From Actinomycetes bacterium (GTDB lineage Bacteria > Actinomycetota > Acidimicrobiia > Acidimicrobiales > Acidimicrobiaceae): a stretch of 41,971 bases of DNA. The notes under the pieces are model-generated. The model saw nothing but the letters and a program-made list of their open reading frames with translations. It had not been told where the DNA came from and did not search any database. Shown here piece by piece: positions 5,503-39,928 of this stretch. Positions within the stretch are counted from its first letter, which is position 1. Each line of letters starts with the position of its first letter. The position numbers and the translations under genes were made by a program. Location: the NCBI GenBank assembly GCA_021785255.1, contig JAJYGA010000088.1:1-41971 (forward strand). The letters are read 5' to 3'.

Positions 5503-5584
5503 GGGGTGTCCCTCGTTTCCGTTTCCGCACTCTGAGTTATTGACCAAGCATCTTCGTTATCAATATCATAGATAAGCAATTGTA

Positions 5585-19085: not shown

Positions 19086-19296
19086 GTCTGATTCCTTCTC
19101 GAGAAATCTCTGATGGTTGTTGATAAATAGCTATTAGTTTTGCCAACCTACTGAAAATCTTCAAGATCTTGCACAAGGCTTTGCTTTGTTGTGGATGACT
19201 CAGAGCAGGTCGAGAGTCGATCGCGACTAGGCACCGAAATCAGTGAACTTAGGAGGATGCGTAGGTGAAGTTCCGAAGGTACCAGGTGGAACTCCA

Positions 19297-19340
19297 TGAC
19301 TATATCTAGTTCGACGGCCAATGTTGACTAGATATAGTCA
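19297..19340. repeat. Perfect 14-bp inverted repeat
   Basis: TGACTATATCTAGT (19297-19310) is the exact reverse complement of ACTAGATATAGTCA (19327-19340), with 16 bases between. There is no T tract on either strand. It may be a protein-binding dyad, a decayed element end or a stem-loop in the 3' region of the lipoprotein transcript. Confidence 0.75.
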
Positions 19341-19500
19341 GGCTAAGATACTGGACTTCGTGCAACATAGTGCCCATGTGCAGATGCCAAAAGTGCTCCG
19401 AAACTATTTCCAGTTGTGCAGATATGGCATTGAACTCACGAGCCTGGGTTCCAGGTTCGTCCAAAGCTCGTCGACTAACCTTTGAGAAGGCAGCTCGCTA

Positions 19501-20313
19501 TCACTTTTCTACGAAGATGTTCATTCCGCCAGCGATACGAGAAGTACTTCCCTTCATGGTTGCGACAATTCTGAACGGCGTGGTTGAACTTGCCATCACG
19601 TCTGTTGATACCATGCCATTTGAAGATGTCGAGTATGACATTGGGGAAGTTGCAGGGGAGCCCATTCCTGATGACATAGACGTCTTGGGAGTTACGGTTA
19701 CGCTGGCACCAGGCACAGGACCAGACGGCGAGGAAACCAAAATACTTAAATGTTGGCTACTAGACGATGCAACCGTGGCGAAAGGTGAAACTGTGACGTA
19801 GTCGCCAATGGGAGCGGTGGGGGAAGTACCTGGACTTGTCCACCAAGCATCCATAGACCCTATAGCACCTTTTGTTTGACTAAACGTTGATAAGGTGCCT
19901 ACCGATACCCCTATCATCTCCATAGTGTTCACCGGTTGGCCTTTTAAAATCAACGTTGCCTTGCCAGCGGAATCAGTGCGGGCGGAAGCCGAAACAACGT
20001 AAGGGCTAGCAGCTGTTGTACCTGACTTTACCCATGTTTTTACTCCTATCCCACTAAGAGGTACCATGGTGCCAAGGTAAAACGATACCGGTGCTTGTGG
20101 CACTGGTGCTCCAGACTTCGATAGTGCGGTCAGCGTAAACGTGGCATCTTGCCCACTTTGTACCATCTGTGCCGTTTTAGAGGTGAGGATCGTGTATACC
20201 CCCGTCTGTGGCTTGGAAACTGAAGTTGTGTTTGAAGTGCTCGATGAAGTTGTTCCACAAGCGCTTAGAAGCACAGAAAGCCCAGCGGCTCCTAAAATCG
20301 TTTTACGGGTCAC
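19501..20313 (-). CDS. Secreted lipoprotein with Ig-like repeats
   Basis: A 270-aa lipoprotein. The N-terminus has a basic MTRK, a hydrophobic stretch and the lipobox LSAC (Cys near residue 19), followed by a Ser/Thr-rich linker. The rest is rich in Ser, Thr, Gly and Val with two beta-sandwich-like units: 'GQDATFTLTALSKSGAPVP', and later 'SPSGPVPGASVTVTP' before a Met/Ser-rich loop. This is the pattern of Big1/invasin-type Ig-like domains, so a cell-surface structural or carrier role is plausible; no enzyme motif is seen. It starts at a GTG preceded by AGGAAGAG. The run MSSGMGSPATSPMS is rich in Met and might bind copper, which is speculation. Confidence 0.78.
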   Translation of the reverse strand: MTRKTILGAAGLSVLLSACGTTSSSTSNTTSVSKPQTGVYTILTSKTAQMVQSGQDATFTLTALSKSGAPVPQAPVSFYLGTMVPLSGIGVKTWVKSGTTAASPYVVSASARTDSAGKATLILKGQPVNTMEMIGVSVGTLSTFSQTKGAIGSMDAWWTSPGTSPTAPIGDYVTVSPFATVASSSSQHLSILVSSPSGPVPGASVTVTPKTSMSSGMGSPATSPMSYSTSSNGMVSTDVMASSTTPFRIVATMKGSTSRIAGGMNIFVEK

Positions 20314-20640
20314 GTACTCTTCCTATTCCGTATTGCTCTATGTTCTGTTATTAGAATATAGCTAATAGTCTAGTATGGCATTTGTATATGAATAATGCGT
20401 GGCTTAACTGAGTGTCTCAGGATATGTACAGTAAACAAAGCAGTCAGTTTTTGTCGATAGCCCGATGATGTCTTGAATAAATGAGACTGAGGGCTCTATG
20501 CTGCCTAAAGTTAGGCTATCAATGAAGGTTTTAACTACTTGTTTGCATCCCTCATCAGAGTTTCACTGTAAGACTGGATTTTCAACAAAAGAACCTAAGT
20601 CCACTAGACAAGATAATAAGTAGCGGCGGGGCAATGTTGT
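20314..20640. other. Promoter region and unassigned DNA
   Basis: The first 100 bases contain AT-rich blocks on the minus strand (for example TATATTCT and TAGACTAT) suitable for the lipoprotein promoter, though exact boxes cannot be fixed. The remainder up to the IS3 remnant has no recognisable gene. Confidence 0.35.
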
Positions 20641-20644
20641 CATA

Positions 20645-21495
20645 GTTCCAGGGCGTGGTAGATGAACTCCGGTTCGCTATCTGATAGTGTGTACTTTGGA
20701 GTCCTCCACTCGGCAACAATGCCATCTAATGCCTCAGTTAGTCCTTGGACATGATCGAACTATCTATGAGGGATGTCGGGTACTCACGAGAGTACTCGTC
20801 TGTGACAGTGAGCAGTTTGATAACCTTTTCATCTCGAGTCTTATCGATCTGGAAGCTCAATTGCTCAGGTGATGTTGGCACCGACTGCCTGATGAGTTCC
20901 CATGGCAATGCTGTGACGTGCTCTGTTGTGCTAACGTATGCGGTATGGTGCGTCCAGTTCGGTATCCCTCCAAAGACGATGAACTTCTTCAGGTTCACCT
21001 TATATCGTTCTTCCAAGACGGCTCGATAGACCTTCTTGTAGCCCTGGCGAGGATGGTCGAAATCGAACTTCCTTAAGAACTCCGTCCGTAAGTTCCTCGA
21101 TTATCGCCGCTTTGACTTTGAGATCTGCCTTTGAGTAGATCTTGGTTGGCCCGTGACCTTGCAGGCTCTGCGCTTTGAAACCCCGAACCGCTGATGTAGT
21201 AACTTCACCGCTCTGCGCCTGTGATTCGGGGTTACCAGTTTCTGATCTCGAACTCCTTTGGCATTGTCTTGTCGAGGTCAGGTCGACGATGATTGTCTTG
21301 AGCTTGCGGTTCTCTGTCTTGAGTTCCTTCAAGCGTTTTTCGTCATTAGCCTTCATACCGCCATAGTGGTTCTTCCATCGATACCAAGTGGTTTCGGTGA
21401 TGCCAGAGTTCCTTGTTACTTCGGCAACCGTTTTGCCCTTGATAGGCATCCGGTCACCTTCTACAAGCCTTCCGTGACTTGCTCAGAGGTGCGCT
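20645..21495 (-). pseudogene. Degenerate IS3-family element (orfA/orfB remnants)
   Basis: The minus strand carries pieces of an IS3-family transposase in several frames. OrfA: KKRTSEQVTEGL near 21490-21455, then a frame change to GKTVAEVTRNSGITETTWYR and WKNHYGGMKANDEKRLKEL, a typical helix-turn-helix and leucine-zipper N-terminus. OrfB: pieces reading DEKVIKLLTVTDEYSREYP (around the second catalytic Asp), then EALDGIVAEWRTPKYTL and SDSEPEFIYHALEL, where SDNGPEF is expected, followed by a stop. Internal stops, frameshifts and missing segments make it non-functional. The end of the orfB catalytic domain is missing. Confidence 0.8.
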
Positions 21496-21559
21496 TCTTA
21501 CTCTATAAGTAGTTTCTCTCTCATGTATATTCTTGTCGGTCTTCTCGCAATTTGGGCGG

Positions 21560-21890
21560 ATCAAATAGGGTTCACCATATCGGTGACTTCCGGGTCTAGT
21601 ATCTGGTACCAATTGTAGAACCCAGAGATGGCGACCAGGCGCCGATTGCTACAGGAGGTGGCCAAGCTAGTGTTCCGGGTATCTAATCGAGTAGACATTG
21701 CCTCGTCTCGTCTCCGGAGCATTACTGCAGAAGTTCAAGTATCGAAGCAGCCACCAATAGTTACCTTCTGTGACGAATGCTGCTCTTCAACCAGCCATCG
21801 GCAGAAAGGCAAGAGGTCAAATGCGTAAGCCTCCGCTGTCCTTGGCGAGTGGCCCCGGTCCGCCAGATAACTGAGATAGACAACCACCAA
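21560..21890 (-). pseudogene. Tyrosine recombinase (integrase) N-terminal remnant
   Basis: Minus-strand translation gives YLSYLADRGHSPRTAEAYAF followed by DLLPFCRWLVEEQH, the SAM-like core-binding domain of phage/XerC-type recombinases. After a stop and frame change it continues as SNRRLVAISGFYNWYQILDP and then a DMVNPI ending at a stop, like the usual NRRLAALSGFY...NP stretch. No catalytic domain (Arg, HxxR, Tyr) follows. It is a relic of an integrase lying at the left boundary of the plus-strand defence cassette. Confidence 0.7.
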
Positions 21891-22117
21891 CTAGTTACGG
21901 TCAACCACCAAGCCCGACAGGCTCCAGCCCTCTTCTTTGTGATCGGGCCGCAACGTCTCTGTCTCCACGAGGCGTCAGTATTGCAGTATCTCAGCATTGT
22001 GCAAGTACCAATACGCGAGATCCCCAATATTTCCGAAATATCTGAGCTTGCGTGGAATACCAAGGAAATAGTGTCCACCATCATTGCTACTAGTTATTAG
22101 TCACATAAAGAGGGAGT

Positions 22118-22137
22118 GGAGAGGGGAAGTTCTCTCC
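22118..22137. promoter_or_regulatory. Small dyad upstream of the HNH gene
   Basis: GGAGAG (22118-22123) and CTCTCC (22132-22137) form a six-base dyad with an eight-base spacer, about 60 bases before the HNH start. It could be an operator or leader hairpin. No clear -35/-10 pair was fixed. Confidence 0.3.
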
Positions 22138-22197
22138 CATCACTCGACACCTTGCCCTGATTGAGCTCGGTTGGCTTCTCCTGGTAACATCGGTTAC

Positions 22198-23817
22198 ATG
22201 AACTCGCTATATCTTAACAGACTGTCGCCTGAGGCGCGCCAGTCCCTAATAGACAGGCTCCATTCTATGCAGTCGGGAAACTGTTTCATTTGTGAGAGAC
22301 CGATCGATCTCAAACTTCACGCGAACTCTTTTGACATCGATCACGTCGAACCTCTAAAGCTTGGCGGTAAGGACGGGGAGGAGAACTTCGCGCTAGCTCA
22401 CTCGACTTGCAACAGGTCTAAGCAGGCGACGGATCTTCGTGTTGCTCGAGTCCTGGCGCGATTCGAAATGATCAGAGAGAGGTGTGCTCAGGACGATCGC
22501 GGTCCAAATCTCGCTGATATTCTTCGGGCTTATGGAGGCGCTAAATATGAGCTCATGTTTGGTATTGTAGGTCACAACATTCGCCTGACCTTAGACGCAA
22601 TGGGTGATCCGGAGATTCAGTCTCTTCCGCTCTACACGGATCCACTGAGCAAACTGCAGTATTTCTTTAGTGTTCTGCCGATCGAGTATCTTCATCACGA
22701 CGACAGGATTAATCCTCGCAACCTTGGTGGAAGCCTCGCACCTTTGGTCGAGGAGTTCCACCTAGGGAGGCCACAACTCCATGCGGCGCTCGCGTGGATT
22801 GATCGAAGCCAAGGACCTGGTCTGGTGAAGGTGTTTGACGGCCAACATAAGGTAAGCGCACAATTGCTGCTAGGCGTGCGGTCGCTTCCCGTTCGGGTGT
22901 TCATTGACCCTGATCCTGAACTTCTCCTTACCACCAATACGCGCGCAGGAACCACTCTACGTCAGGTTGCATTTGATAGGTCGGTCCAAAGACGGCTTGG
23001 AAGATCCCTCTTCACTGACAGGCTTGAGAGGTATCGGCTTGAAAAGGGATTACCAGATGATGATGAATCCATGTCTGAGCGTGACCTGGTCAACTTTTTC
23101 AGGGGAGAATCTAGAGAAGTAAAGCGCTACGCCGTTGATGCCGTTAGAGCTGCCATCACACATAACTCCCTGAACAAACTAACCCCCTACATTGAGTTCG
23201 GAGGTAGGTCAACTGAAAAGCCGCTCTCGTACAGCACGGTAGAGAAGACGTTTTTCTCGTTCTTCATATATACCGATGTCTTAGACACTCCTCTCAATTA
23301 TAGGGCTGATGAGGGCCTCAATCCCCGTCAGTTGGAGATCGACCAAGTCGTCCGGCTGATGAATTTTGTTGCTGAGATCATACTCGTCGACCAGTTCGAC
23401 ACCGAGCTTGGCACGGCCCGCCTTGAGAATAAAGTTCAGAAGAACGAAGATATACCTGAACCTCATCTTAGGGCTTTCAGAATGTGTAAGGAAGAAGTAC
23501 TTTACTCATGGTTAATCTATATTAGACAAATAGTTCAGGGTCACTTTACGTACAGTGGTCAACCCTTCGATCAGAACAGATCATTTCAATACAAGTTCCC
23601 AGAACAGTTATGGAGGCAACTGCACTCCTATCTTGTCCACTTGAGGGACTTTCCGCTCTGGGTTAATCGTGACTTATCTTCCACTGTTTTTGGAGGCAAG
23701 CAATCTAGCGAGTTTTGGAGAATAATCTTCGAGAGTGGCAAGACTCCTGAAGGACAGCAAGTGCTGAGTGGATCGATCAACCTAATGACCATGATCGAAG
23801 ATGCTGACTCGGTATGA
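22198..23817 (+). CDS. HNH endonuclease fused to DGQHR/ParB-like domain
   Basis: A 539-aa protein, first gene of the defence cassette. The N-terminal HNH nuclease reads CxxC (Cys29, Cys32), then DIDHVEPLKLGG with the catalytic DH at 48-49, Asn63 and CNRSK (71-75). After a linker (about 85-160) comes a DGQHR-type segment: VFDGQHK (212-218), followed by a ParB-like PVRVFIDPD and a TTNTRAGTTL stretch. DGQHR domains occur in DndB of DNA phosphorothioation systems and belong to the ParB/sulfiredoxin superfamily. The last 270 residues are mostly helical with no motif I recognise. An upstream TTG (22171) would add nine residues; neither start has a strong ribosome site. A DNA-cutting or DNA-sensing role is inferred from domains and neighbours. 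Confidence 0.82.
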   Translation: MNSLYLNRLSPEARQSLIDRLHSMQSGNCFICERPIDLKLHANSFDIDHVEPLKLGGKDGEENFALAHSTCNRSKQATDLRVARVLARFEMIRERCAQDDRGPNLADILRAYGGAKYELMFGIVGHNIRLTLDAMGDPEIQSLPLYTDPLSKLQYFFSVLPIEYLHHDDRINPRNLGGSLAPLVEEFHLGRPQLHAALAWIDRSQGPGLVKVFDGQHKVSAQLLLGVRSLPVRVFIDPDPELLLTTNTRAGTTLRQVAFDRSVQRRLGRSLFTDRLERYRLEKGLPDDDESMSERDLVNFFRGESREVKRYAVDAVRAAITHNSLNKLTPYIEFGGRSTEKPLSYSTVEKTFFSFFIYTDVLDTPLNYRADEGLNPRQLEIDQVVRLMNFVAEIILVDQFDTELGTARLENKVQKNEDIPEPHLRAFRMCKEEVLYSWLIYIRQIVQGHFTYSGQPFDQNRSFQYKFPEQLWRQLHSYLVHLRDFPLWVNRDLSSTVFGGKQSSEFWRIIFESGKTPEGQQVLSGSINLMTMIEDADSV

Positions 23818-24369
23818 CAGGGGCGTATCAGTAAGTTGGAACCTCATTTAGCGCTTCCAAATACCCAGGCTCGGATTGCAGACCTCAATCCGAATCGCAG
23901 GACATTGCCTCTTGTAGCTCTTGATCTGTGCGACTGCGTGAATGAGGACGTTAAACATAAGCGAGTTACACGTCGTTGTATGTTGTTCTGTCGTTCCAAA
24001 AGAGATATCTCGCTAGCTCGCGGTTCAATCTTTTCTAGGTTCGCGAATACGAGAAACAACGCTTATCTCTATCCATACCAAGCTGACCAAATTTGTTCAG
24101 AGACGGAGGGACTGCCCTGGCACCATACGGGAAGAGCGAGCGCATCGTTTTGCCCTTGGGGATTGATCCTTACGCTATCTCTACAGATCGTTGTGGTGTG
24201 GCTCTCGGAAATGAGTAGTGGCAAAGTCGTATTGCCGTGTATCGGGCTGGCGTGCGTCGCCATATCTCGGGCCTATTATAGGGTGAAACCTTTACGAAGA
24301 TTTCACCAGAGACAGTTGCTCGTCGTCTCGTAACGAGAGTCGAGTCTAAGACAGGGAGAACCAAGCAGC
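23818..24369. other. 552-base spacer inside the defence cassette
   Basis: The gap separates the HNH gene from the large helicase gene, whereas the later genes overlap. A 165-codon frame (23836-24333, TTG start) is open but shows no recognisable domain. Another frame (from about 24109) reads PYGKSERIVLPLGIDPYAIS and, after two stops, ISPETVARRLVTRVESKTGR, which looks protein-like. Either a small gene has decayed here, or the gap is a leader with a second promoter for the three large genes. A ribosome site GGGAG lies near 24354-24358. Confidence 0.4.
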
Positions 24370-27300
24370 GTGGATGTCTTTGAGCTACGCGATCGAATGG
24401 TCGCAGAATACGAAAGCTACGTGATGAGTTTCCTCACTATTGGCGACAGTCGGCTCGTCGCCGAAGTAAAGAAAGAACTCGACTCCGGACTGTTGTGGCC
24501 GGAACCGCGTATTGGCCTGAACCCAAGTTTCGCATCTGGTGGAAAGATCGGTCAGTTGGTGGACGAGGGACTCCTTCATCCTGAGTGTCGCCGGATCTTC
24601 CAGATCAAGAATTCAGCCGGCGATGTCGTAGCCCCTCTAGAGCTCCACCAACACCAGAGAGAAGCGATTAAGATAGCGAGGACCGGAGCCAACTACGTGC
24701 TCACTACAGGAACCGGCTCAGGAAAGAGTCTTGCCTACATCATTCCTATCGTTGATGCTGTGCTTCGTGAGGGGCCAGGTAACGGGATTAAGGCGATCGT
24801 CGTCTACCCGATGAACGCGCTGGCGAACTCCCAAGAACAAGAACTAACCAAATACATCAACTACGGGTACCCTAACAGTCAAGGGCCGGTTACCTTCAAG
24901 CGATACACCGGCCAGGAGACCGACGATGAGAAGCAGGCGATCATCGAAAACCCACCGGACATTCTCCTTACCAACTACGTCATGTTGGAACTCATCCTCA
25001 CGCGTGTCGATGAGACGCGCTTGGTGGATGCGGCACGGGGTCTGCGGTTCCTGGTATTTGACGAATTCCATACCTATAGAGGCCGCCAGGGAGCAGATGT
25101 CGCTTTTCTCGCTAGGAGGACCAAACTTGCCTGCGGTGGGGATCACCTTCAGATCATCGGTACATCGGCGACGATGTCAAGCTCAGGCGATCAACGCGCC
25201 GAGGTAGCCAAGGTTGCCACCTTACTCTTTGGTGCAGAGGTAACCAAGGAAGCGGTTATTGGTGAGACGCTTCGCAGAGCTACCAAAGTACATGACTTCT
25301 CCCAGCCAGTCGAACGTGGGCTCTTGGCGACTCGTCTGCGCTCTGTCAATGAGCCTGCCGCAGATGTTGACACATTCATTGCAGACCCACTTTCGGCCTA
25401 TATCGAACAGACCTTCGGACTCACCGAAGATGCCTCAGGGAGACTCGTTCGCCAGAACCCACGGCCACTTGGAGGCATATCCGGCGTCGCCCACGAACTG
25501 AGTGACCTTACCGGCGTCGCTGTACCCGAGTGTGAACAAGCCCTGCGGAAGCAGCTGCTCGCTGGCTACAACCTCTACCCCGATGGTGGTCGCTTCCCAG
25601 TCTTTGCCTTCAGAGTGCATCAGTTTCTTTCCAGGGGCGATGCAGTCTCTGCCACCTTGGAGGATCCACAAGCTCGGCGGATTTCCTTCGAGGGAGAGTC
25701 GTGGATCACAGGTGATTCGGGAGAGCGCGAGGCTCTCTACCCACTCGCATTCTGCCGCGAGTGTGGGCAGGACTACTACGTCGTGTCGCTGGTCAACAGC
25801 ACGGCCAAGACTTTGCGACGTGACCTGGAGTACACGAAAGAGATGGCAGCGCAGTTGATTCCACGCATCTTCGACGATCGAGGAGCCGAATCCCAGGAGG
25901 AGTCTGGGTATCTCTATTTCGGCAACTGGGACGAGACTGCTCCCGACTACTACGAGACTCTGCCCGAGAATTGGATCACCTATCGAAACGATCAACCCGT
26001 GACCAACTCTCGCTACCGAGATCGATTGCCCATTGCGGTACAGGTTGGCCGAGACGGAGTGCTCGGTCACGGTGGAGTACGCGCCTTTTATTTTCGCACC
26101 CCACTGCAGTTCTGTCTTAACTGCCGTGTCACCTACGGCTCACGCCAGCGTTCTGATGTGCCGAAACTGAGTACTCTTGGCTCAGGGGGACGCTCGACGG
26201 CAACGACGATTCTCTCGCTCTCGCTACTGAAACAGTTGCGGACCTCAACTGGTTTGGATCCGACCGCCCAGAAACTCTTAGTCTTTACCGACAATCGCCA
26301 AGATGCCAGCCTTCAAGCTGGACACTTCAATGACTTTGTGGAGATGACCCAGCTCCGAGCCGGCCTCTATAAAGCCCTATGTCAAGCCGGGGACTCAGGG
26401 GTGTCATACGAGAACCTGACTAACGCTCTTTTTGGCGCGATGAATGTTGGCTTCGAGGTGTATTCCTCTTCGCCGGATGCCCGTTTCAGTGCTAGGGACA
26501 ACATCGAAAGAACCTTCAGAGATGTCCTTGGCTATCGAATCTACCGAGATCTTGAGCGAGGCTGGCGCATCATGGCTCCAAACTTAGAACAGACTGGACT
26601 CTTGCGGATCGACTACCAGGATCTCGATGAGATAGTCGCCTCGGAGGATCTTTGGTGTGATACACACGCTGCTCTAAGAGGTGCCTGCCTTGAAACCCGA
26701 CGTAGCCTGGCGCTGGTACTACTTGACTACCTGCGCAAGGAGCTTGCCATAAAGGTCGACTATCTAGACCCGCAGTTCCAGAGTGGCCTTGCACAGCGAT
26801 CCGGGCAGAATTTGAAGACTCCGTGGGCTATCGACGAGAACGAGAAGTTGCTCACGGCTAAGATCGCCTACGTCGGCTCGGTGTCTGCGAGCAAGGACCA
26901 AGATGTCATCGGGTTGACACGGCTCGGTGCCTATGGTCAATGGCTTCGTAAGCGCTCGACACTGAACCATCTTTTGGACCAACTCCCCTCGGCCGAGGTG
27001 GAGACCGTGATCGCAGAACTCCTCGGCGTACTTGCTCGTGTGGGACTCCTTGCGGAGATTCGCTCACCAAGAGGCCAGAGATCTGGCTACCAAGTCAAAG
27101 CCGCGGCGCTCGTGTGGCACCAAGGGAATGGTGAGATTGCACCTGATCCGATCCACTTGCCTCGGCCCCCAAAAGATGGTCGTCGGCCCAACGAGTACTT
27201 TCAACAGCTTTACATGGGGGCTGCAGAGGGATTTGCTGGCCTTGAGGCCCGTGAACATACCGCCCAGGTTCCCCCGGAGGCACGAGTTGATCGCGAGACG

Positions 27301-29586
27301 AGATTCCGCAAGGGGGAGCTGGCGGCACTGTTTTGTTCTCCGACCATGGAACTCGGCGTCGACATCGCAGAGCTCTCGGTCGTCGGCCTTCGCAACGTTC
27401 CGCCAACGCCTGCAAACTACGCCCAACGCTCAGGTCGTGCTGGACGCTCCGGCCAGCCAGCGTTGGTCTTTACCTATGCAACCACCGGCTCTCCCCATGA
27501 CCAGTACTTCTTCAGGCGACCGGACAAGATGATCTCCGGTCAGGTCTCTCCTCCACGCCTCGACCTTAGCAATCAGGATCTTGTACGAAGCCATGTCCAC
27601 GCACTCTGGTTGAGTTCAGCCAAGTTCAGTCTTGAATCCAAGTTGAGCGATCTCCTCGACGTCAGTGGTGAACCTCCGAGCCTGGAGATGACAGACCGAG
27701 TCAAGGAGGCACTATCGGACCCGACCCCTAAGCGATTTGCTCAAGAGAACGCCCGGATGATGTTGGTCGCCCTTGACCACCAACTCGAGGCCTCAGGCTG
27801 GTGGAGCGAGATGTGGTTGAGCGAGACGATGAACTCGCTCGGTGCCCGATTCGAACAGGCTACTCAACGCTGGAGAAGTCTCTATCGAGCTGCCAGGACA
27901 CAGAGCGATATCCAACATCGTATCTCCCAGGACGCCTCGAGATCCCCTGCCGACCGGGCCAATGCTGACCGGCTACGCAGGGAGGCTCGATCGCAACTCG
28001 AGTTGCTCCTGCTCGACACCAATGCGTCAACTCAGTCCGACTTCTACTCGTACCGTTATTTTGCAGCAGAGGGGTTCCTGCCCGGCTACTCCTTCCCCCG
28101 CCTTCCTCTCTCCGCCTTCATCCCAGGTAGGCGACACGGCTATGGTGAAGACGGCTTCTTGGCGCGTCCAAGATTCCTAGCCATAAGCGAGTTTGGTCCG
28201 CGCAACTTCATCTATCATGAGGGATCTCGCTACGAGGTCAACCGAGTCATTTTGCCAATAGCTCAAGGATCCACCGGAGCCGATGGCGAGAACCTTCTTA
28301 CTCGTCGGGCCAAACTCTGTCATCAGTGTGGATACTTACACTCTCTGAGCTCGGATGCTGGCCCAGATCTCTGTGAGAGCTGTGGGGCCGAGCTTGGCGT
28401 GGCGATCCCTAACCTCTTTCGCTTGGAGAACGTAGTAACTAGGCGACGTGAGAGGATCAATTCAGATGAGGAGGAGCGACGCCGACAAGGTTATGACGTA
28501 CTCACGACCTATCGATTCTCCTCGGCTGCGCCACTCCGTGGTGAGGTAGTAATCGACGAAGAGGCGGCTCTTCGCCTCACCTATGGGCAAGCAACCACGC
28601 TATGGCGTATCAACCAAGGGTGGCGGAGGCGGGCCAATCAAGCTCAGGTAGGTTTTGGCCTCGACACCGAACGCGGCTACTGGGCAAGTAGACCCGAGGA
28701 GGAGGGTGAGACCTCAGGCGAAGAGAGTGACCCAATCAATAAACGCGCGATCAAGGTCGTGGTTCCCTACGTTGAGGATGCGAGGAATGTCCTCGTCATC
28801 GAACCACTTGGCGGCACTGGTGGCACCCCTGATAGAACTGGGTTCATGGCCTCTCTACAAGCGGCGCTAAAGCACGCTATCCAGATCGAGTACCAGCTCG
28901 AAGACAATGAGCTGGCTGCAGAGCCGCTCCCGAATCCAGAGGATCGACGCTTCATCATGTTCTATGAGGCCTCGGAAGGGGGAGCCGGTGTACTGCATCG
29001 ACTGATCGAAGAGCCGAATGCCTTCGCACGAGTGGCAAGGGTCGCGCTCGAACTCTGCCACGTCGATCCCGACACCGGCAAGGACCGAGACGACGTCGGC
29101 ATACGACCCTGCAGCGTTGCCTGTTATGACTGTCTCCTCTCCTACTTCAACCAGGGCGACCATCGAAGGCTGGATCGACATGGTATTCGTTTCTACTTGA
29201 GCGACCTCATGAGATCGGTGACCAAAGAGACTGGTGGTAGTAGGGATGCCGAGGACGCACTCAAACGACTCAAGGCCACGACCGCGAGCAGCCTCGAAGA
29301 TGCCTGGCTTGATTTTCTCGTAGAGCATCGGTTGCGCCTGCCTTCGAGTGCTGCGCACCTCGTCAAGGCCGCCCGGTGCCGCCCGGATTTTCTCTACGAA
29401 CGCGACTACGTTGCCGTCTTCCTCGACGGACCAGTGCACGACGATGCAGACATTCAACTCAGAGATGAGGCGGCAACCGCGCGGCTCCGCTCTCTCGGCT
29501 GGAGCGTGGTGCGCTTTGGCTATCAGGATAACTGGGCTGATATCGCTGCGAGTCGTCCAGAGATCTTTGGAAAGAAGGACCTATGA
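24370..29586 (+). CDS. DEAD-family helicase with DUF1998 and Vsr/DUF559-like nuclease tail (DrmA-DrmB/DruE-like)
   Basis: A 1738-aa protein. The superfamily 2 motor has Walker A TGTGSGKS (113-120), TNYVMLELIL (201-210), DEFH (231-234) and GTSATM (264-269). The second RecA half carries SPTMELGVDI (about 990) and the Arg-finger motif QRSGRAGR (about 1019). Cys-rich points are CRECG near 462 and a four-Cys site CHQCG...CESCG near 1317-1340. The DUF1998 region includes EASEGGAGVLHRL and CSVACYDCLLSYFNQ (about 1536-1590). The end (about 1650-1726) reads RPDFLYERDYVAVFLDGPVH, then RSLGWSVVRF, like Vsr/DUF559 nucleases. Length and order equal DISARM DrmA plus DrmB in one chain, as in DruE or MrfA. 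GTG start with GGAG upstream; its stop overlaps the next ATG (ATGA). Role as a DNA translocase-nuclease in anti-phage defence is inference. Confidence 0.87.
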   Translation: MDVFELRDRMVAEYESYVMSFLTIGDSRLVAEVKKELDSGLLWPEPRIGLNPSFASGGKIGQLVDEGLLHPECRRIFQIKNSAGDVVAPLELHQHQREAIKIARTGANYVLTTGTGSGKSLAYIIPIVDAVLREGPGNGIKAIVVYPMNALANSQEQELTKYINYGYPNSQGPVTFKRYTGQETDDEKQAIIENPPDILLTNYVMLELILTRVDETRLVDAARGLRFLVFDEFHTYRGRQGADVAFLARRTKLACGGDHLQIIGTSATMSSSGDQRAEVAKVATLLFGAEVTKEAVIGETLRRATKVHDFSQPVERGLLATRLRSVNEPAADVDTFIADPLSAYIEQTFGLTEDASGRLVRQNPRPLGGISGVAHELSDLTGVAVPECEQALRKQLLAGYNLYPDGGRFPVFAFRVHQFLSRGDAVSATLEDPQARRISFEGESWITGDSGEREALYPLAFCRECGQDYYVVSLVNSTAKTLRRDLEYTKEMAAQLIPRIFDDRGAESQEESGYLYFGNWDETAPDYYETLPENWITYRNDQPVTNSRYRDRLPIAVQVGRDGVLGHGGVRAFYFRTPLQFCLNCRVTYGSRQRSDVPKLSTLGSGGRSTATTILSLSLLKQLRTSTGLDPTAQKLLVFTDNRQDASLQAGHFNDFVEMTQLRAGLYKALCQAGDSGVSYENLTNALFGAMNVGFEVYSSSPDARFSARDNIERTFRDVLGYRIYRDLERGWRIMAPNLEQTGLLRIDYQDLDEIVASEDLWCDTHAALRGACLETRRSLALVLLDYLRKELAIKVDYLDPQFQSGLAQRSGQNLKTPWAIDENEKLLTAKIAYVGSVSASKDQDVIGLTRLGAYGQWLRKRSTLNHLLDQLPSAEVETVIAELLGVLARVGLLAEIRSPRGQRSGYQVKAAALVWHQGNGEIAPDPIHLPRPPKDGRRPNEYFQQLYMGAAEGFAGLEAREHTAQVPPEARVDRETRFRKGELAALFCSPTMELGVDIAELSVVGLRNVPPTPANYAQRSGRAGRSGQPALVFTYATTGSPHDQYFFRRPDKMISGQVSPPRLDLSNQDLVRSHVHALWLSSAKFSLESKLSDLLDVSGEPPSLEMTDRVKEALSDPTPKRFAQENARMMLVALDHQLEASGWWSEMWLSETMNSLGARFEQATQRWRSLYRAARTQSDIQHRISQDASRSPADRANADRLRREARSQLELLLLDTNASTQSDFYSYRYFAAEGFLPGYSFPRLPLSAFIPGRRHGYGEDGFLARPRFLAISEFGPRNFIYHEGSRYEVNRVILPIAQGSTGADGENLLTRRAKLCHQCGYLHSLSSDAGPDLCESCGAELGVAIPNLFRLENVVTRRRERINSDEEERRRQGYDVLTTYRFSSAAPLRGEVVIDEEAALRLTYGQATTLWRINQGWRRRANQAQVGFGLDTERGYWASRPEEEGETSGEESDPINKRAIKVVVPYVEDARNVLVIEPLGGTGGTPDRTGFMASLQAALKHAIQIEYQLEDNELAAEPLPNPEDRRFIMFYEASEGGAGVLHRLIEEPNAFARVARVALELCHVDPDTGKDRDDVGIRPCSVACYDCLLSYFNQGDHRRLDRHGIRFYLSDLMRSVTKETGGSRDAEDALKRLKATTASSLEDAWLDFLVEHRLRLPSSAAHLVKAARCRPDFLYERDYVAVFLDGPVHDDADIQLRDEAATARLRSLGWSVVRFGYQDNWADIAASRPEIFGKKDL

Positions 29587-32432
29587 CTCACTCCGTTGGA
29601 AGCCTGGTAAGAGCCCGAGGGCGGGACTGGGTGGTACTCCCTGAATCCGATGAGGAACTCCTGGTCCTTCGACCGCTCGGTGGCACTGACCTCGAGGTCG
29701 CTGGAGTATTGACCTCACTTGAGAAAGTAGAGCCATCCACGTTTGCTCTGCCAAGCACCAAGGACTTAGGTGATAAAAGGTCTGCTCGGATGCTCACCGA
29801 TGCCCTCAAGCTTGGCTTTCGTGCTTCAGCCGGCCCGTTTCGAAGCTTTGGTCAACTCGGTTTTGAGCCAAGGCCCTATCAGTTTGTGCCGTTGATGATG
29901 GCCCTCAAACTTGACCCCGTCCGTCTGCTCATCGCCGATGACGTAGGGGTAGGCAAGACCGCCGAGGCGCTCATGATTGCCAGGGAGCTTCTCGCCCAGG
30001 GTGAGATCACAAGACTGGCCATCCTCTGCCCGCCTCATCTGGCGAACCAATGGCAACAGGAGATGGCCGAGAAGTTTGGCCTTGGGGCTGAACTCGTTCT
30101 TGCCTCGACAGCAGCGACGCTGGAACGGGGATGTCGCACCGGGGAGACCCTCTTTAACCACTTCCCTATCACCGTCGTCTCCAGCGACTTCATCAAGGCG
30201 GAACGGCGAATGACGGAGTTTCTCCGCACGGCCCCTGAGATGATCATCGTCGATGAGGCCCATGCGGCAGCTGCTGACACCAGAGTTCGCTCTGCACGCC
30301 ACCAACGCCACGAGCTCATCAAAGCCCTAGCACAAAAGCCAGAGCGCCATCTCATCCTCGTCACCGCCACCCCTCACTCAGGCAATGAAGGAGCCTTCCG
30401 ATCACTCCTCGGTCTGTTGCGGAAGGACTTCACCGAGCTTCCAGAGGATCTATCTGGAGATGCAAACCGACGGATTCGCGAGCAGGTTGCCCGTCACCTG
30501 GTACAACGCCGACGAGCAAACCTGCGCGCCTACCTCGGCGATACCGAGTTCCCCGAACGCCTCAGCCGCGAAGCCCCTTACCAGCTCACCGAGGAGTACA
30601 AGCTCCTCTTGAATAAAGCGTTGACCTATGCGCAACGCCAAACTGGTCAACGCCAAACGGGCGGGCCAGATGACGCTCGCAGGATGCGTGTGCGTTGGTG
30701 GTCGGCACTGGCTCTTCTGCGAGCTATCGCCTCCTCCCCCGCGGCAGCGGCTGTCACCCTGCGCAAACGCGCTCAAACCCACGGTGTCGCGGACCCAGAG
30801 GAGGTCGAGCGTATCAGCCGCCAACGAGTTATGGATCTTTTTGGCGATGATGATGACGGAGAGGTCGACGAGGAGCTTGGCGTAGCCGAGGATGACAATG
30901 GCGAAGGTGAGCCGACGGCAGGTCTTACCAATGCCCCAGAGTTAGCTGAGCGACGAACGCTCTATGAACTTGCACGTCTAGCAGATGACTGCATGGGGGA
31001 TAAAGATGCGAAGTTGATGATGCTCGTCGATGAGGTCAGAGGGCTTTTAGGCCAGGGTTTTGTGCCGATTATCTTCTGTCGTTTCATAGCGACCGCCGAC
31101 TACCTCGCGAGCGAACTCCAAGGACGACTCACAGGCGTCGAGATACGCGCCGTCACAGGAGATGTACCCTCCACAAAACGTGGCGAGATCGTCGATGAGC
31201 TCGCTAGTCATCCAAGACGAGTGCTCGTCGCCACCGACTGCCTCTCTGAGGGTATAAACCTCCAGGATTATTTCAACGCGGTCATCCACTACGACCTATC
31301 CTGGAACCCAACCCGGCACGAGCAGAGAGAAGGCCGCGTTGATCGCTTTGGGCAGTCATCCAAAGAGGTACGGATCATCACCTGTTATGGAAGCGACAAC
31401 CGGATTGATGGACTGGTGATGGAGGTTCTCCTGCGCAAGCATCAGTCGATTCGCAACTCGCTTGGCATCTCGATCCCAGTCCCTGGGGATCCAAACACCG
31501 TAGTGGAGACCCTGATCCGTGGAGTACTCAGCGAAGGCGAGCGCTTGGGCCAGGGGACTCAGCTTACTCTCGAGGGTCTTGGACCAGCCGAAAGTGAGCT
31601 CGCTACCGCCTGGGAGGCGAGTGCCAGACGTGAAGAGGTGCTACGGACCATCTTTGCCCAGAACACGCTTGGGCCAGATGTGGTAGCCAGAGAGCTTGAT
31701 TCACTCAGAGAAGCAGTCGGTACCGTCGCAGACATCAAGAGGTTCACAAGTGACGCCATCAGATCCGTTGGCGCAACGGTGAGTGGCGACGACCCTTTGG
31801 TGTTCACCCTCAATGGTGTCCCACACGCAATCAAGGAGCTTGCAGGGGGACAAAGAGAGATTGTCATGCGCTTTGAGTCACCAGCGCGCAATCCACGAGA
31901 ACGAACAGCGTCACGGGTCGAGCCATTCATCGCAGGCCTGAGTTCTTGGGTAATAGATAGCGCACTCGACAACTCCGGACCCGCTGCACGAGCAGGAGTA
32001 CGGCGGTCCAATGCCGTTAGCATCGTCACGACACTAACGGTCGTGCGCCTTCGCTTCGAGCTGCGAACACGAAACTCACAACTCCTGGCTGAGGATGCAC
32101 TGGTTGCCGGATTCGAAGGACTTGGAAGCGATATCGTCTGGCTTGACTCACGAGATGCTCTTTCGTTACTCGATGCCCCTTCAACCGGCAATGTCGCCTC
32201 ATTTCAGGCTGAGGAGTTTCTCCACCAAGCCCTCGACGACTACGAGAAGTTCTGGCGAGATGACTTGGTCAAGTTGGCTAGACATCGAGGGGAGGTGCTC
32301 AAAGAGAGTCACCAACGGGTTCGCGATGCTGCCCGTCGCAGTGGCGAGGTTGACGTTTCGCTCATGGTTCCACTTGATGTCATTGGCCTCTATGTGCTCT
32401 TGCCTGACGCTTCTTCAGGGGAAGCTAAATGA
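29583..32432 (+). CDS. SNF2/RapA-like helicase, DrmD-like
   Basis: A 949-aa SNF2-family ATPase of the RapA/HepA type. The N-terminal 90 residues are a small beta-rich region, followed by FEPRPYQ and Walker A DVGVGKT (120-126), CPPHLANQW (149-157), DEAH (224-227) and VTATPHSG. Between the two RecA halves is an acidic insert ([10 protein letters not shown] near 419-428). The C-terminal half has the [12 protein letters not shown] motif V and the Arg motif [11 protein letters not shown]. Class 1 DISARM encodes an SNF2 protein, DrmD, with the same partners, so this is its likely counterpart. ATG overlaps the upstream stop, and its own stop overlaps the next ATG, so all three proteins should be made in a linked ratio. 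Confidence 0.88.
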
Positions 32433-35400
32433 GCGCTGCCATAGTTGGAGTCGGTGTCAGGAGCATTGGAGGACTCTTGCCGGCCGAGTTTCTTCTTCGG
32501 CTACGGGATCCAAAGTCGGATCTCATCGGCATACGTCCGAGTGACTATCATCTTGGTGCCAATGAACGCATGAGTGAGATCATCTCTCGATCGTGGAATC
32601 GTCTGGCGAATGCCTGGATTGGCTTTAGTAAAGCGCTTGAAGAACTCAACGATCAAGAGGTCACTGCCGGTGCTCTCACTCGGGAAAAGTGGCTCAGCGT
32701 GATCTTTGGTGAGCTCGGGTATGGAAGATTGTCAAGTGCCAAATCGATCGAGATCGAAGGGCGACTCTATCCGGTTTCTCATGAGTGGAGAGATGTCCCC
32801 ATCCACCTGGTTGGAGCTCGCGTTCCCCTCGACAAGCGCACTTCTGGAGTGAAGGGGGCGGCCGGGAAGAGCCCACACTCCTTGGTCCAGGAGTTGTTGA
32901 ATCGGTCAGAGGAGAGACTCTGGGGGATGGTCTCCAACGGCCTAATCCTGCGGGTCCTTCGTGATAGCACCAGTCTGACCCGTCAGTCCTACCTCGAGTT
33001 CGACCTCGAGGAGATCTTTTCGAATGAACTCTTCGATGACTTCGTGACGTTCTGGATGATCTGCCACGAGAGCCGCTTTGAGGGCGATGATCTCGCCCGG
33101 TGCTGGCTCGAGCGCTGGCGCGGGCAGATCAACGAATCGGGCATTCGTGCCCTTGATGCGCTCCAAGATGGGGTGAAACAGGCGATCGAGTCGATTGGTC
33201 AGGGCTTGCTCAGCCACCCGAAGAATATAGTGTTACGTGAATCATTGCGCATGGGAGAGTTGAGTAACCTTGAGTTCTATCGTGAGGTCCTTCGACTCAT
33301 CTACCGAATTCTCTTTCTTTTTGTTGCGGAGGATCGAGAACTGCTCCACGCACCAGACGCGTCGCAACTAGCGATCGATCGTTATCGAAAATGGTATTCG
33401 ACCAAGAGACTGCGAGAACAGGCTTGGGGGGCTCGTTCAAATAGTCATGACGATCTTTGGCAGATGATGCTTGCTGTAATGCACGGACTCGGTAAGCCAG
33501 AGGGTCTACCCGAGCTTGGACTGAGCGCACTCGGGAGTTACCTGTGGAGTGATGAGGCGATCCCAAAGCTCATTAATTGTGCGATTGGCAACAGGAGTTT
33601 CGGAACTGCACTCGTGCACCTCTCAAGCATGATCTCAGAAGGGGTACGTCGTCGAGTAGACTTTGCCAATCTCGGTGCTGAGGAACTGGGCAGCGTCTAT
33701 GAGGCGCTTTTGGAGCTTGTCCCCGAGGTGGACATTGCCTCCGCGAGCTTTGAGCTGAGAGCGACACCTGGAAACGAGCGCAAGACGTCCGGTAGTTACT
33801 ACACGCCGAGCGAACTGGTGGCCAGTCTGCTTGAGAGCGCACTCGACCCGGTAGTAACGGAAGCTCTTCAGGCTCCGGATCCAGAGCAGGCTCTCCTTGG
33901 GATCAAGGTCCTTGACCCAGCCTGCGGAAGCGGTCACTTTCTCATCGCTGCCGCCCATCGCATCGCCGAACGTTTAGCCGGCTATCGGGTTGGCGAACCG
34001 GAGGCTCCACCAACAGCGGTCCGTCACGCGCTCCGTGAGGTGATCTCTCGGTGTTGTTATGGGATCGACATCAACCCGATGGCGGTTGAGTTAGCGAAAG
34101 TGAGCCTCTGGATGGAGGCGATGGAACCAGGTAAACCATTGACTTTTCTTGAACGACATGTCATTACCGGTAATGCACTTCTTGGCACCACGCCTGCACT
34201 CGTCGTACGCGGTATCCCACATGAAGCCTATAAGGCACTCGATGGAGATGATCGGGCGAGTGCGAACGCAGCCAGGAAGAGGAATCTGGCTTTCTGTACA
34301 GGTCAAATTAGTCTTGACTCTGAACGGCTGCGAAGTAGCGCAAGCAAAGTCCGCGAAGAGGTTCTAGAGATCGACGAGATTGAAGAGAACAGTCTGGGAG
34401 ATATCGAGGTAAAAGCCCAACTGTGGGAGGAGTTACAAACACAGAGCGCATTTGAGCGAGAGAAGTTGGCCGCCGATGCCTGGTGTGCGGCCTTCTTCTA
34501 CGAGAAGGTCCCCCAAGGTGGAGAAATCACGACCGACACCATCCACAGGATTCTCACTGCGGGCCGGGCGGGAGGTGGGCAGAGGGAACTCGAGCTAATC
34601 GAGATGCTGGCAACTCAGAACAAGTTCCTTCACCTACACATTGCCTTCCCTGAGGTGTTCCCGATCGGAGACGAAAACACCTCGACAGGGACAAGCGCTG
34701 GACTGCGGGGGGGATTTGACGTTGTTCTTGGCAATCCGCCTTGGGAGCAAATTCAGCTGAAGGAAGAGGAATATTTTGCGGTGACAGCACCGGAAATAGC
34801 AGCTGCCAAGGGAAGTACACGTAAGCAGTTAATCCAGGATCTAGCAATAACAGATACAACCTTGTATAGCGGGTACCAATCTGCGCTACGAGCACAACAT
34901 GCGATCAGCGCGTTCTTACGCTCGAGCGGCAGGTTCCCTCTGGCGGGAACCGGGAAAGTCAACAGTTACGCTGTTTTTGCTGAGTTGATGCGCCAAGCGC
35001 TCGGACCAAGAGGTCGCTGCGGTGTCATTGTCCCGACCGGTATTGCGACCGACGACTCGACCAGCGAGTTCTTCAAAGACCTCGTCGCGACGCGCACTTT
35101 AGTGAGTCTCTTCGACTTCGAAAACCGGAACAAGGTGTTTCCCGCTGTCGATAGCAGGCAAAAGTTCTGTCTCCTTACCATCTCGGGCTCCGAGCGACCA
35201 ACCAAAGTAGCCCAGTTCGTTCTCTTTGCTCATACGGTCGCAGATCTCGAAGACCCGCAACGACGCGTGACCTTGTCCGATGCAGACTTTGAGCTCATCA
35301 ACCCAAACACTGGCAACCTGCCGATCTTTCGGACCATGAGAGATGCTGAGCTTGCCAAGCAGGTGTACTCACGGGTTCCTGTACTACTTCGCACCGGATC

Positions 35401-36331
35401 AGAAGTGACGAATCCGTGGGGGGCTCGACTGAAACAGGGCCTGTTCAATATGACGACAGGATCAAGCTCATTTCTCACCTTCGATTTCCTGCTTGCCTCC
35501 GGTGCGGCGCTTGATGGCAATGTCTTCGTCGGTGTTGATGGCATCCGGTATCTCCCTCTCTATGAAGGTAAACTCATTCACCATTTCGATCACCGATTCG
35601 CAACGTATGAAAGGGCAAAAGGGGACAAACCTATCGAGGTTGAGGGAGCTTACAAGATGGATTCGAGTTGGGCGATCATGCCACGGTACTGGGTCAGCGA
35701 AGGCGAGGTTCGAGAGAAGCTCGAAGGTTGGGATCGGGAGTGGTTGATCGGGTTTCGGGGTATCACCAATTCCACCAATGAGCGGACAGTGATCGCATCG
35801 GTGTTTCCAGTGACCGCAGTGGGGAACAGTATGATCCTCGTCGACGTACCACACTCGCAAGGGTCCACGGTGGCCGCGTTAGTTAGCTGTCTCGACTCCT
35901 TTGCTTTGGACACGATTGCCCGCATGAAGGTTGGTGGCTCAAACTTTAATCTCTTCATAGTAAATCAGCTACCGGTATTGCCTCCTGACGTTTTTGATGA
36001 TCGGGTGCCGTGGGGATCCGACCGATCAGAGACATTAGCCCAGTGGATCGCCTCTCGTGTGCTAGAGCTGACCTATACAGCCTGGGACCTACGGCCATGG
36101 GCAAAGGAACTTGGCTATGACGGCGAACCATTCATCTGGGATGAGCTAAGACGCGGACGGCTCCGTGCGGAGTTGGATGCTTGTTTTTTCCATCTCTATG
36201 GGTATACGAGAGATCAGGTGGTACATGCGATGGAGAGTTTCCCGATCGTCAAACAAAGGGACGAGCAGCAATTTGGCGAGTATCGGACCAAGCTCCGGAT
36301 TCTCGACCTGTTTGACGAGTATTCCTCATAG
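32429..36331 (+). CDS. Large N6-adenine DNA methyltransferase, PglX/DrmMI-like
   Basis: A 1300-aa adenine-N6 methyltransferase of the type IIG/PglX architecture. A long helical N-terminus (1-450) precedes the entry motif TSGSYYTPSELV and motif I LDPACGSGHF (about 495-504), then a YGIDINPMAVELAK motif and the catalytic NPPW (about 768-771) in VVLGNPPWEQ. The last 400 residues probably form the target recognition domain. Comparable enzymes are DrmMI of class 1 DISARM and PglX of BREX, which mark host DNA. No PD-(D/E)xK motif was recognised in the N-terminus, so it is probably a modification-only subunit. It is the last gene of the cassette; its ATG overlaps the SNF2 stop. Confidence 0.88.
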   Translation: MSAAIVGVGVRSIGGLLPAEFLLRLRDPKSDLIGIRPSDYHLGANERMSEIISRSWNRLANAWIGFSKALEELNDQEVTAGALTREKWLSVIFGELGYGRLSSAKSIEIEGRLYPVSHEWRDVPIHLVGARVPLDKRTSGVKGAAGKSPHSLVQELLNRSEERLWGMVSNGLILRVLRDSTSLTRQSYLEFDLEEIFSNELFDDFVTFWMICHESRFEGDDLARCWLERWRGQINESGIRALDALQDGVKQAIESIGQGLLSHPKNIVLRESLRMGELSNLEFYREVLRLIYRILFLFVAEDRELLHAPDASQLAIDRYRKWYSTKRLREQAWGARSNSHDDLWQMMLAVMHGLGKPEGLPELGLSALGSYLWSDEAIPKLINCAIGNRSFGTALVHLSSMISEGVRRRVDFANLGAEELGSVYEALLELVPEVDIASASFELRATPGNERKTSGSYYTPSELVASLLESALDPVVTEALQAPDPEQALLGIKVLDPACGSGHFLIAAAHRIAERLAGYRVGEPEAPPTAVRHALREVISRCCYGIDINPMAVELAKVSLWMEAMEPGKPLTFLERHVITGNALLGTTPALVVRGIPHEAYKALDGDDRASANAARKRNLAFCTGQISLDSERLRSSASKVREEVLEIDEIEENSLGDIEVKAQLWEELQTQSAFEREKLAADAWCAAFFYEKVPQGGEITTDTIHRILTAGRAGGGQRELELIEMLATQNKFLHLHIAFPEVFPIGDENTSTGTSAGLRGGFDVVLGNPPWEQIQLKEEEYFAVTAPEIAAAKGSTRKQLIQDLAITDTTLYSGYQSALRAQHAISAFLRSSGRFPLAGTGKVNSYAVFAELMRQALGPRGRCGVIVPTGIATDDSTSEFFKDLVATRTLVSLFDFENRNKVFPAVDSRQKFCLLTISGSERPTKVAQFVLFAHTVADLEDPQRRVTLSDADFELINPNTGNLPIFRTMRDAELAKQVYSRVPVLLRTGSEVTNPWGARLKQGLFNMTTGSSSFLTFDFLLASGAALDGNVFVGVDGIRYLPLYEGKLIHHFDHRFATYERAKGDKPIEVEGAYKMDSSWAIMPRYWVSEGEVREKLEGWDREWLIGFRGITNSTNERTVIASVFPVTAVGNSMILVDVPHSQGSTVAALVSCLDSFALDTIARMKVGGSNFNLFIVNQLPVLPPDVFDDRVPWGSDRSETLAQWIASRVLELTYTAWDLRPWAKELGYDGEPFIWDELRRGRLRAELDACFFHLYGYTRDQVVHAMESFPIVKQRDEQQFGEYRTKLRILDLFDEYSS

Positions 36332-36850
36332 CCTTCGACGCCGTCATGGGAGACTGCTCGATGGAGTAGTAGCCAGAGTCAACTTCGCCGCAGAGTAATT
36401 ATCAACTCCATGCAGACCGATTCTCATGCATCCATTTGGTCTACCAATCTTTCACGAGTCGCGTCTCAAATATTGTGCAATTTTCATTAGATAAATGAAA
36501 ACTAGTGGTGGTCATGGTATCGAGAAAGTAAGAAACAAAAACACCTAGTTGAAAGGACCGTACTGCACTAGCTGCCAGATTAGTTGTAGCCCCACATATT
36601 TAAGTACTATATTAAATTAATAGGCTGCAAGTAATCTGGCAGCTAGGGCGAATAGGAAGCTCCTTTAATGCTCCAAAGTGAGTAGCGCTCGAGTAAGTGT
36701 TTAAAATGGGTTGCCTCGAACTCTGAGTATCTAGTGTCTATGTGCGTTCTAGATGATACTAAGGGGTCAGAAGTACAATTTAGCAGGGAGTTATCGGACA
36801 TTGGAAGTGGACTTGGAGCTTTGTCTTGTCCAGTAACGACGTTGTGTGTC
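36332..36850. other. AT-rich gap with inverted repeats
   Basis: No gene is supported. It contains a short dyad TTTTCATT (36481-36488) with AATGAAAA (36494-36501) and the long inverted repeat at 36568-36646. The stretch 36470-36630 is clearly AT-richer than the cassette. It separates the defence cassette from the housekeeping rpmB-hemH pair and probably marks the right boundary of the inserted DNA. Confidence 0.5.
36568..36646. repeat. 25-bp imperfect inverted repeat with AT-rich centre
   Basis: CTAGCTGCCAGATTA (36568-36582) is the exact reverse complement of TAATCTGGCAGCTAG (36632-36646). The match continues inward (GTTGTAGCCC against CTTGCAGCCT, eight of ten), giving arms of about 25 bases around a 29-base AT-rich centre. 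It resembles a miniature inverted-repeat element, an element end pair or a large hairpin. No second copy was seen in the window. Confidence 0.75.
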
Positions 36851-37885
36851 TTATGTTTTTGGTGAACGACAACATGTCGAGGAACAGAAGTTGGGGAGCG
36901 GGACTCCGACGCTTTTGATTTCTGCGTTAGGATCCAAGCGTTCGGATACCAGATCCACGACCATCTCTACGAAGTCGTCTGAGTGAGATACAGTTGGTAC
37001 TCGATAGAGGTTTACGCCCGCATGTAGCGCTCTTTGGTGCGCTAAGGTGTCGAGGTCGTAGCGTACTTCTTGATGATCTGAGATGAATCCGATTGGAACA
37101 ACTACAAGGCGCTTGAAGCCTTCCTTGGCGAGTTCTTCAATCTTGTCCCCGATGTCAGGTTCTAACCATGGCTGTGAAGGTGACCCGCTCCGGGACTGAA
37201 AGGCCCTAAAGAACTCATAGGGTTCTCCTAGGTGTTTCACTGTGACGAACTCAAGGTGGGAACTCACGAACTTTATCTGCTCTTCGTAGTTGCTCGTGGA
37301 AGCCATCTCTAGTGGTATGGAATGAGCTGTCGTGATGAATGCGGTGTCCTTTACCGATGGCGACTCGACCTTGCTGAACGTCGACAATGTAAGTTGTTCA
37401 AGAGAAGACAAGAACTTTGGATGGTTGTAGAACCCTCTAATCTTGTGTAGTTCAATGAATCCGTTCTTTAAGTTTGCGTGTTTAGCTCGTTCGATGTCTT
37501 CAAGATACTGCCTACACGAAGAGTAGGAGGAGTATGCTGAGGTCGCAAATACTAATGCTTTAGTGATCCCGTCCGCTATCATCTCACGTACGGTGTCCTG
37601 GATGTATGGTGTCCAGTTTCTGTTTCCGAAGTAAATAGGAAGGTGGAACCCTTGTCTTAGCATGAAATCTTCGACTCTTTTGATGAGACTTCGATTTTCC
37701 TGGTTAATAGACGAGGTTCCACCGAATTGGTAGTACTGTTCGGCTACCAACTGCAAACGCTCTTTAGGTATGCGTCTCCCCCTGGTTACATTCTCCAAAA
37801 AAGGCATTACATCTTCCATGGACTCGGGTCCGCCGAAGGAGAGCCAAAGGAGAGCCTGGTAAGAAGAGTCCTTCTGGGAGGACAT
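36851..37885 (-). CDS. hemH: Ferrochelatase (coproporphyrin III type likely)
   Basis: A 344-aa ferrochelatase that inserts ferrous iron into a porphyrin ring in heme synthesis. Diagnostic stretches are LWLSFGGPES near the N-terminus, YFGNRNWTP, the catalytic AHSIP motif (about 190) and PIGFISDHQEVRYDLD, which carries the conserved SDHxE. Actinobacteria generally use the coproporphyrin pathway, so the true substrate is probably coproporphyrin III (CpfC); that is family knowledge. The C-terminus holds three Cys (FCSSTCC), suggesting the [2Fe-2S] cluster known in actinobacterial enzymes. It follows rpmB by only four bases, so the two are co-transcribed. Confidence 0.93.
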   Translation of the reverse strand: MSSQKDSSYQALLWLSFGGPESMEDVMPFLENVTRGRRIPKERLQLVAEQYYQFGGTSSINQENRSLIKRVEDFMLRQGFHLPIYFGNRNWTPYIQDTVREMIADGITKALVFATSAYSSYSSCRQYLEDIERAKHANLKNGFIELHKIRGFYNHPKFLSSLEQLTLSTFSKVESPSVKDTAFITTAHSIPLEMASTSNYEEQIKFVSSHLEFVTVKHLGEPYEFFRAFQSRSGSPSQPWLEPDIGDKIEELAKEGFKRLVVVPIGFISDHQEVRYDLDTLAHQRALHAGVNLYRVPTVSHSDDFVEMVVDLVSERLDPNAEIKSVGVPLPNFCSSTCCRSPKT

Positions 37886-37889
37886 AGAC

Positions 37890-38078
37890 CTAAGCTTTGG
37901 TTACTTTCCCAGCCCTAATGCAGGATGTGCAAACTGACAGGCGCTTTGGCGTGCCACCAACTACTGCGTGAACTCTCTGTATGTTTGGATTAAATCTTTT
38001 CTTGTTTCTACGATGGGAGTGGGAAAGACTCATGCCGAAGTACGGCTTTTTTCCACACAGTTCACAAACTGCTGCCAC
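37890..38078 (-). CDS. rpmB: Ribosomal protein bL28
   Basis: A 62-aa large-subunit ribosomal protein. It has the zinc-binding CELCGK pair near the N-terminus, the basic NKKRFNPNIQRV core and a second CTSC pair near the end, so it is the zinc-type variant. It starts at GTG after a strong GAGGAG ribosome site. It is divergent from the DAK2-domain gene, an arrangement (rpmB next to yloV and recG) that is widely conserved in Gram-positive bacteria. Confidence 0.95.
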   Translation of the reverse strand: MAAVCELCGKKPYFGMSLSHSHRRNKKRFNPNIQRVHAVVGGTPKRLSVCTSCIRAGKVTKA

Positions 38079-38170
38079 TTTATCTCCTCAAATGTCGACG
38101 ACGGAACATTTAGTTTATACGCTTTGCTATCAAAGGCGAACTAGCGAGCAAGAGCGCTACTATTTGTGCA

Positions 38171-39913: not shown

Positions 39914-39928
39914 TAACATACTTCTATA

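Follow-up and report, generated by a model that had tools for sequence, protein, structure and literature searches.

ARMADA Type I is the described system closest to the locus analysed here. Its genes generally code, in this order, for a YprA helicase, a BrxHII-like helicase and a PglX-like methylase; a Vsr-type nuclease forms part of the YprA chain (Bell et al. 2025 preprint, PMC12458937). The same work reported the order SNF2-methylase-YprA for archaea and cyanobacteria, described ArmD in ARMADA Type II, found ARMADA YprA closest to Druantia, and published anti-phage activity for Type II only (PMC12458937). ParB-fold/HNH fusions were called novel in a 2025 survey (PMC12704722), and in SspE the HNH nuclease is licensed by GTP hydrolysis, for which the DGQQR motif is required (PMC13251355).

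The window (the whole stretch of DNA that was analysed, 41,971 nucleotides) contains four genes on the + strand at 22198-36331. The first (gene 1, 22198-23817, 539 aa) codes for a protein with an HNH and a predicted ParB/sulfiredoxin-fold domain, the second (24370-29586, 1738 aa) for a YprA-family helicase, the third (29583-32432, 949 aa) for a RapA/BrxHII-like SNF2 helicase, and the fourth (32429-36331, 1300 aa) for a PglX-like N6-adenine DNA methylase. ORF calls agreed with the initial annotation on the common strand and on the joining of the last three genes by ATGA overlaps, each exactly 4 bases long. The HNH, DEAD helicase-DUF1998, SNF2 and N6-adenine methylase motifs that it listed were also found, the motif that it read as DGQHR in the first protein being FDGQHK (residues 213-218). 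We consider it very probable, taking both parts together, that genes 2-4 form an ARMADA Type I anti-phage system and that the HNH gene is independent of it, most likely coding for a stand-alone, nucleotide-gated restriction factor.

Pfam profile searches placed DEAD, Helicase_C and MZB (the same as DUF1998) domains in the single 1738-aa chain of gene 2, so that the DrmA- and DrmB-like parts are one protein, as initially annotated. This chain shared 38-52% identity over its full length with proteins of loci that have the same operon. Most positions of the Walker A motif (TGTGSGKS, residues 113-120, 24706-24729, + strand) and of the DEFH box (residues 231-234) were invariant in the homologue alignment; residue 233 varied. 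A BrxA-like helical insert and zinc-binding modules are further features expected of ARMADA Type I YprA, and in this alignment CxxC pairs were conserved at 462/465, 582/585, 1317/1320 and 1335/1338. The MZB/DUF1998 zinc-binding domain (residues 1496-1589, 28855-29136, + strand; PF09369, E 1e-9) was present in all 16 homologues. The C-terminal tail (residues 1640-1720, 29287-29529, + strand) resembles Vsr/DUF559 proteins: 13 of the 16 homologues matched DUF559, with E-values down to 4e-6, the match of the window's own tail being sub-threshold (18.2 vs 20.6 bits). Residues E1643 and D1673 were invariant among homologues and D1686 and H1690 nearly so. Judged from these sequence features, the tail is a putative Vsr-like nuclease, in line with the earlier reading. 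Gene 3 contained SNF2-rel and Helicase_C domains (Pfam). Gene 4 matched the Pfam Eco57I/N6_Mtase families (Eco57I, E 1e-18), with DPACGSG at residue 496 and NPPW at residue 769. The catalytic motifs of genes 2-4 were intact.

Genes 2-4 are assigned to ARMADA Type I because their gene set, order and domain architecture agree with the published description (PMC12458937). The window trio has the order YprA, BrxHII-like helicase and PglX-like methylase, the helicase core and DUF1998/MZB lie in one YprA chain, and YprA ends in a putative Vsr-type nuclease, though with the sub-threshold DUF559 match noted above. The YprA protein occurred in 23 of 396 genomes of the phylum, the window's genome counted, and the trio was found in the same order in 19 further loci, 16 in genomes of the phylum and three on plasmids of Nocardioides (Actinomycetota), Deinococcus (Deinococcota) and Roseomonas (Alphaproteobacteria). 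All 16 fetched regions (L063-L078) had YprA, SNF2 and methylase genes in this order, some with small insertions and two with methylases running off the contig. Natrinema and Chroococcidiopsis showed the order SNF2-methylase-YprA. In a YprA tree, where long branches meet and from which the published Type I reference WP_108720193.1 is absent, the window protein clustered with proteins of Type I-order loci, apart from ARMADA Type II (L081, L085 and L086) and DruE (L090 and L091). Searches of viral contigs with single-protein patterns found no YprA, and a DNA-similarity search of E. coli genomes gave no hits, as expected at such distance.

Additional genes were observed within other ARMADA Type I operons. 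One operon had a gene for an ArmD-like UvrD helicase of 727 aa between YprA and SNF2 (L067:8386-10566, - strand), whose product shared 30% identity over ~650 residues with ArmD of an E. coli Type II plasmid locus (L081). Another contained a MazE/AbrB and PIN pair (L065:10908-11651), and a third contained genes for HigB and an HTH protein as well as HicB-like and DUF4258 genes (L066:4915-6874).

All four genes of the window lie inside an inserted island of ~16.4 kb (20439-36860), in place of which a same-genus genome (G524) has ~157 bp at the same site. In a blastn comparison with this genome (L100), window positions 19494-20438 matched 6291-5341 and positions 36861-41971 matched 5183-79. PEPCK was close to ferrochelatase also in G082 (L101). 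Direct repeats bounding the island were not convincing in 19000-24500 or in 36200-37000, the two ranges being searched separately, and a scan for promoters and terminators gave no more signals than shuffled sequences. An imperfect inverted repeat with 27-nt arms (89%) and a 31-nt spacer (36565-36649) lies within the island, ~0.2-0.3 kb before its right end; near the left end is an HTH_Tnp_1 transposase piece (21000-21449, - strand). Elsewhere in the window, a second R-M-like operon (399-5547, - strand) contained N6/Eco57I methylase pieces and a ResIII helicase that also has T5orf172 and RAMA domains, and was adjoined by an ISL3 transposase piece (5899-6591, - strand).

The HNH gene is a separate gene that shares this island with the ARMADA trio and has no recurrent partnership with it. 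We base this on the absence of linkage in either direction, on the 552-bp gap without overlap that separates it from the YprA gene, and on its different GC content (49%, flank- or host-like, vs 54-58% in genes 2-4). The lone ORF in the gap (23836-24333, 165 aa) was without a family match. The ARMADA trio was near none of 28 relatives of the HNH gene (up to 10 kb per side, less on short contigs); near one relative (L012) only the methylase was matched, and weakly, and no ARMADA gene was nearby in L079, an HNH relative in a genome of the same order. Conversely, the flanks retrieved for the 19 Type I loci contained no HNH gene, and among 22 other ARMADA genomes one (G162) had an HNH relative, on a contig other than that of ARMADA. 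The four-gene cassette with an HNH member, for which recurrence in other genomes was searched, was accordingly not found again, and the initial proposal of such a unit is rejected. It could still be argued that this particular ARMADA Type I recruited the HNH-ParB/Srx protein in its lineage as an optional accessory effector, which would give a true four-gene defence unit. The gene is on the same strand, next upstream and in the same island, other Type I operons do take in accessory genes (the ArmD-like helicase in L067 and the toxin-antitoxin genes in L065 and L066), and G162 holds both an HNH relative and ARMADA. However, the lack of recurrence, the separate contigs in G162, the gap and the GC difference make this improbable.

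PADLOC 2023 models gave a different picture of the trio, as no ARMADA model was among the matches and the three proteins were split across DruE, DpdE, DrmD and DrmMI. The initial annotation had known no named system of such composition and had described the locus as a hybrid; a DISARM/Druantia-related defence cassette it is, but not an unnamed one, as the published ARMADA Type I fits exactly. Its specific version, a new class 1 DISARM hybrid with fused DrmA and DrmB and with DrmC replaced by the HNH-DGQHR protein and the Vsr tail, agrees with the matches of the SNF2 protein to DrmD (E 7e-89) and of the methylase to DrmMI (E 5e-63). We nevertheless regard it as very unlikely: the YprA chain is much closer to DruE models (E 4e-91) than to DrmA (E 4e-14), as reported for ARMADA, DrmC is absent, as initially annotated, with no DrmC/PLD match among the island's proteins, the trio is already named and widespread, and no second case of the four genes together was found. 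Least credible is membership of the trio in Dpd or BRIGADE, as suggested by the match of PADLOC 'DpdE' (PDLC02853) to SNF2 residues 1-945 (E 2e-216), since the curated NCBIfam DpdE model scored only 164.6 against a cut-off of 500 and neither a 7-deazaguanine DNA modification gene nor a PLD gene was present among the window genes scanned. Nor does the complete island contain dpdA/dpdB or genes of deazaguanine synthesis. PDLC02853 itself probably derives from ARMADA SNF2 proteins.

The HNH protein was also analysed as a family of its own. Its Pfam match was HNH (PF01844, E 5e-9), covering a nuclease domain at residues 29-76 (22282-22425, + strand) with the pattern CFIC...DH...N...H..CN, and PF01844 was detected in 22 of 25 family members. 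Residues C29, C32, D48, H49, N63, H68 and C71 of this domain were invariant in 25 homologues, as were D214, G215, Q216, H217 and K218 of the FDGQHK motif (22834-22851, + strand), which lies in the ParB/Srx-like domain. An AlphaFold model built with 24 sequences had a pLDDT of 88.9 and a pTM of 0.56. In this model, residues 10-94 matched Cas9 HNH domains and residues ~150-252 matched ParB/sulfiredoxin folds, the latter modestly (Z 7-8, 8.0 at most; Foldseek E 0.004 at best), and each structural match spanned a domain. The protein is thus predicted to join a Cas9-like HNH domain to a following ParB/sulfiredoxin-fold domain, the combination of HNH (PF01844) and a ParB fold in one chain that is seen in ParB/Srx-HNH fusion proteins. 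Assignment to GmrSD Type IV restriction (DUF262 followed by DUF1524 HNH) was rejected, as neither DUF262 nor DUF1524 was matched in the 25 homologues and the domain order is reversed.

The 28 relatives (22-73% identity) came from Actinomycetota, Bacteroidota, Thermotogales, Nitrosotalea, Bathyarchaeota and others; none was found in plasmid and phage collections. One contig of 102 kb in a viral collection had an HNH-ParB/Srx relative (L080:8001-9605, 45% identity). Defence-type neighbours included BREX PglZ-BrxL (L007), Type I R-M (L010 and L013), an Eco57I/ResIII pair (L002 and L023) and a KAP NTPase (L018). Other neighbours were housekeeping genes, such as those for valyl-tRNA synthetase and SecA, and many HNH loci were without a recognised defence neighbour. 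Clustering of neighbours across 30 loci revealed no recurrent partner besides the near-identical L003/L004 and the Eco57I/ResIII pair of L002/L023, where homologues of the second R-M-like operon of the window (399-5547) lie close beside the HNH gene. An association with this pair was dropped as weak, as only one of eight other ResIII-bearing genomes of the phylum (G317) had the HNH gene. It is quite possible, and we suggest it tentatively, that HNH-ParB/Srx proteins with FDGQHK are an unnamed family of stand-alone anti-phage nucleases that has spread horizontally over bacteria and archaea. In such proteins a ParB-like domain would bind a nucleotide and thereby license the N-terminal Cas9-type HNH nuclease, and their genes would slot in next to BREX, R-M and ARMADA systems.

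By analogy with GmrSD and SspE, the HNH protein most likely works as a stand-alone, nucleotide-gated restriction factor with the domains reversed, in which nucleotide binding or hydrolysis by the ParB/Srx-fold domain would gate HNH cleavage. In ARMADA, the PglX-like enzyme may place N6-methyl-adenine marks through which host DNA would be spared, targets discriminated, or both; the RapA-like and YprA-like motors would load onto unmarked invading DNA and travel along it, and the Vsr-like tail of YprA may cut it.

The locus is a known system with an uncharacterised neighbour gene, whose family is itself unstudied and widespread. A false four-gene system is thereby removed from the candidates and the trio is filed as ARMADA Type I. 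Two leads emerge, the uncharacterised HNH-ParB/Srx family of bacteria and archaea, and the accessory genes, of toxin type or for an ArmD-like helicase, that some ARMADA Type I operons contain.

In comparison with known systems, gene 1 has, like GmrSD, BrxU and SspE, a predicted ParB/Srx-fold domain with a DGQ(Q/H)(R/K) motif together with an HNH nuclease; in GmrSD and SspE the ParB/Srx part precedes HNH and the motif is DGQQR, whereas in gene 1 HNH is N-terminal and the motif is DGQHK. Class 1 DISARM has in common with the window a DrmD-like helicase and a DrmMI-like methylase, but it has separate DrmA and DrmB and the PLD protein DrmC, in contrast to the helicase and DUF1998 in one chain of the window. 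Druantia DruE is a fused YprA-DUF1998 helicase, as in the window, and its PADLOC models were those that fitted the YprA chain best; however, no other Druantia gene (such as DruH) was matched at the window, where the partners are SNF2 and methylase. YprA, SNF2 and methylase of ARMADA Type II (E. coli plasmid, L081) are homologous to those of the window, but their identity to the window proteins is only ~22-26%, the order there is SNF2-methylase-YprA-ArmD, and an ArmD (RelE-UvrD) helicase gene, not found in the window, is present. ARMADA Type I shows no essential difference from the window trio, the upstream HNH gene lying outside the described system.
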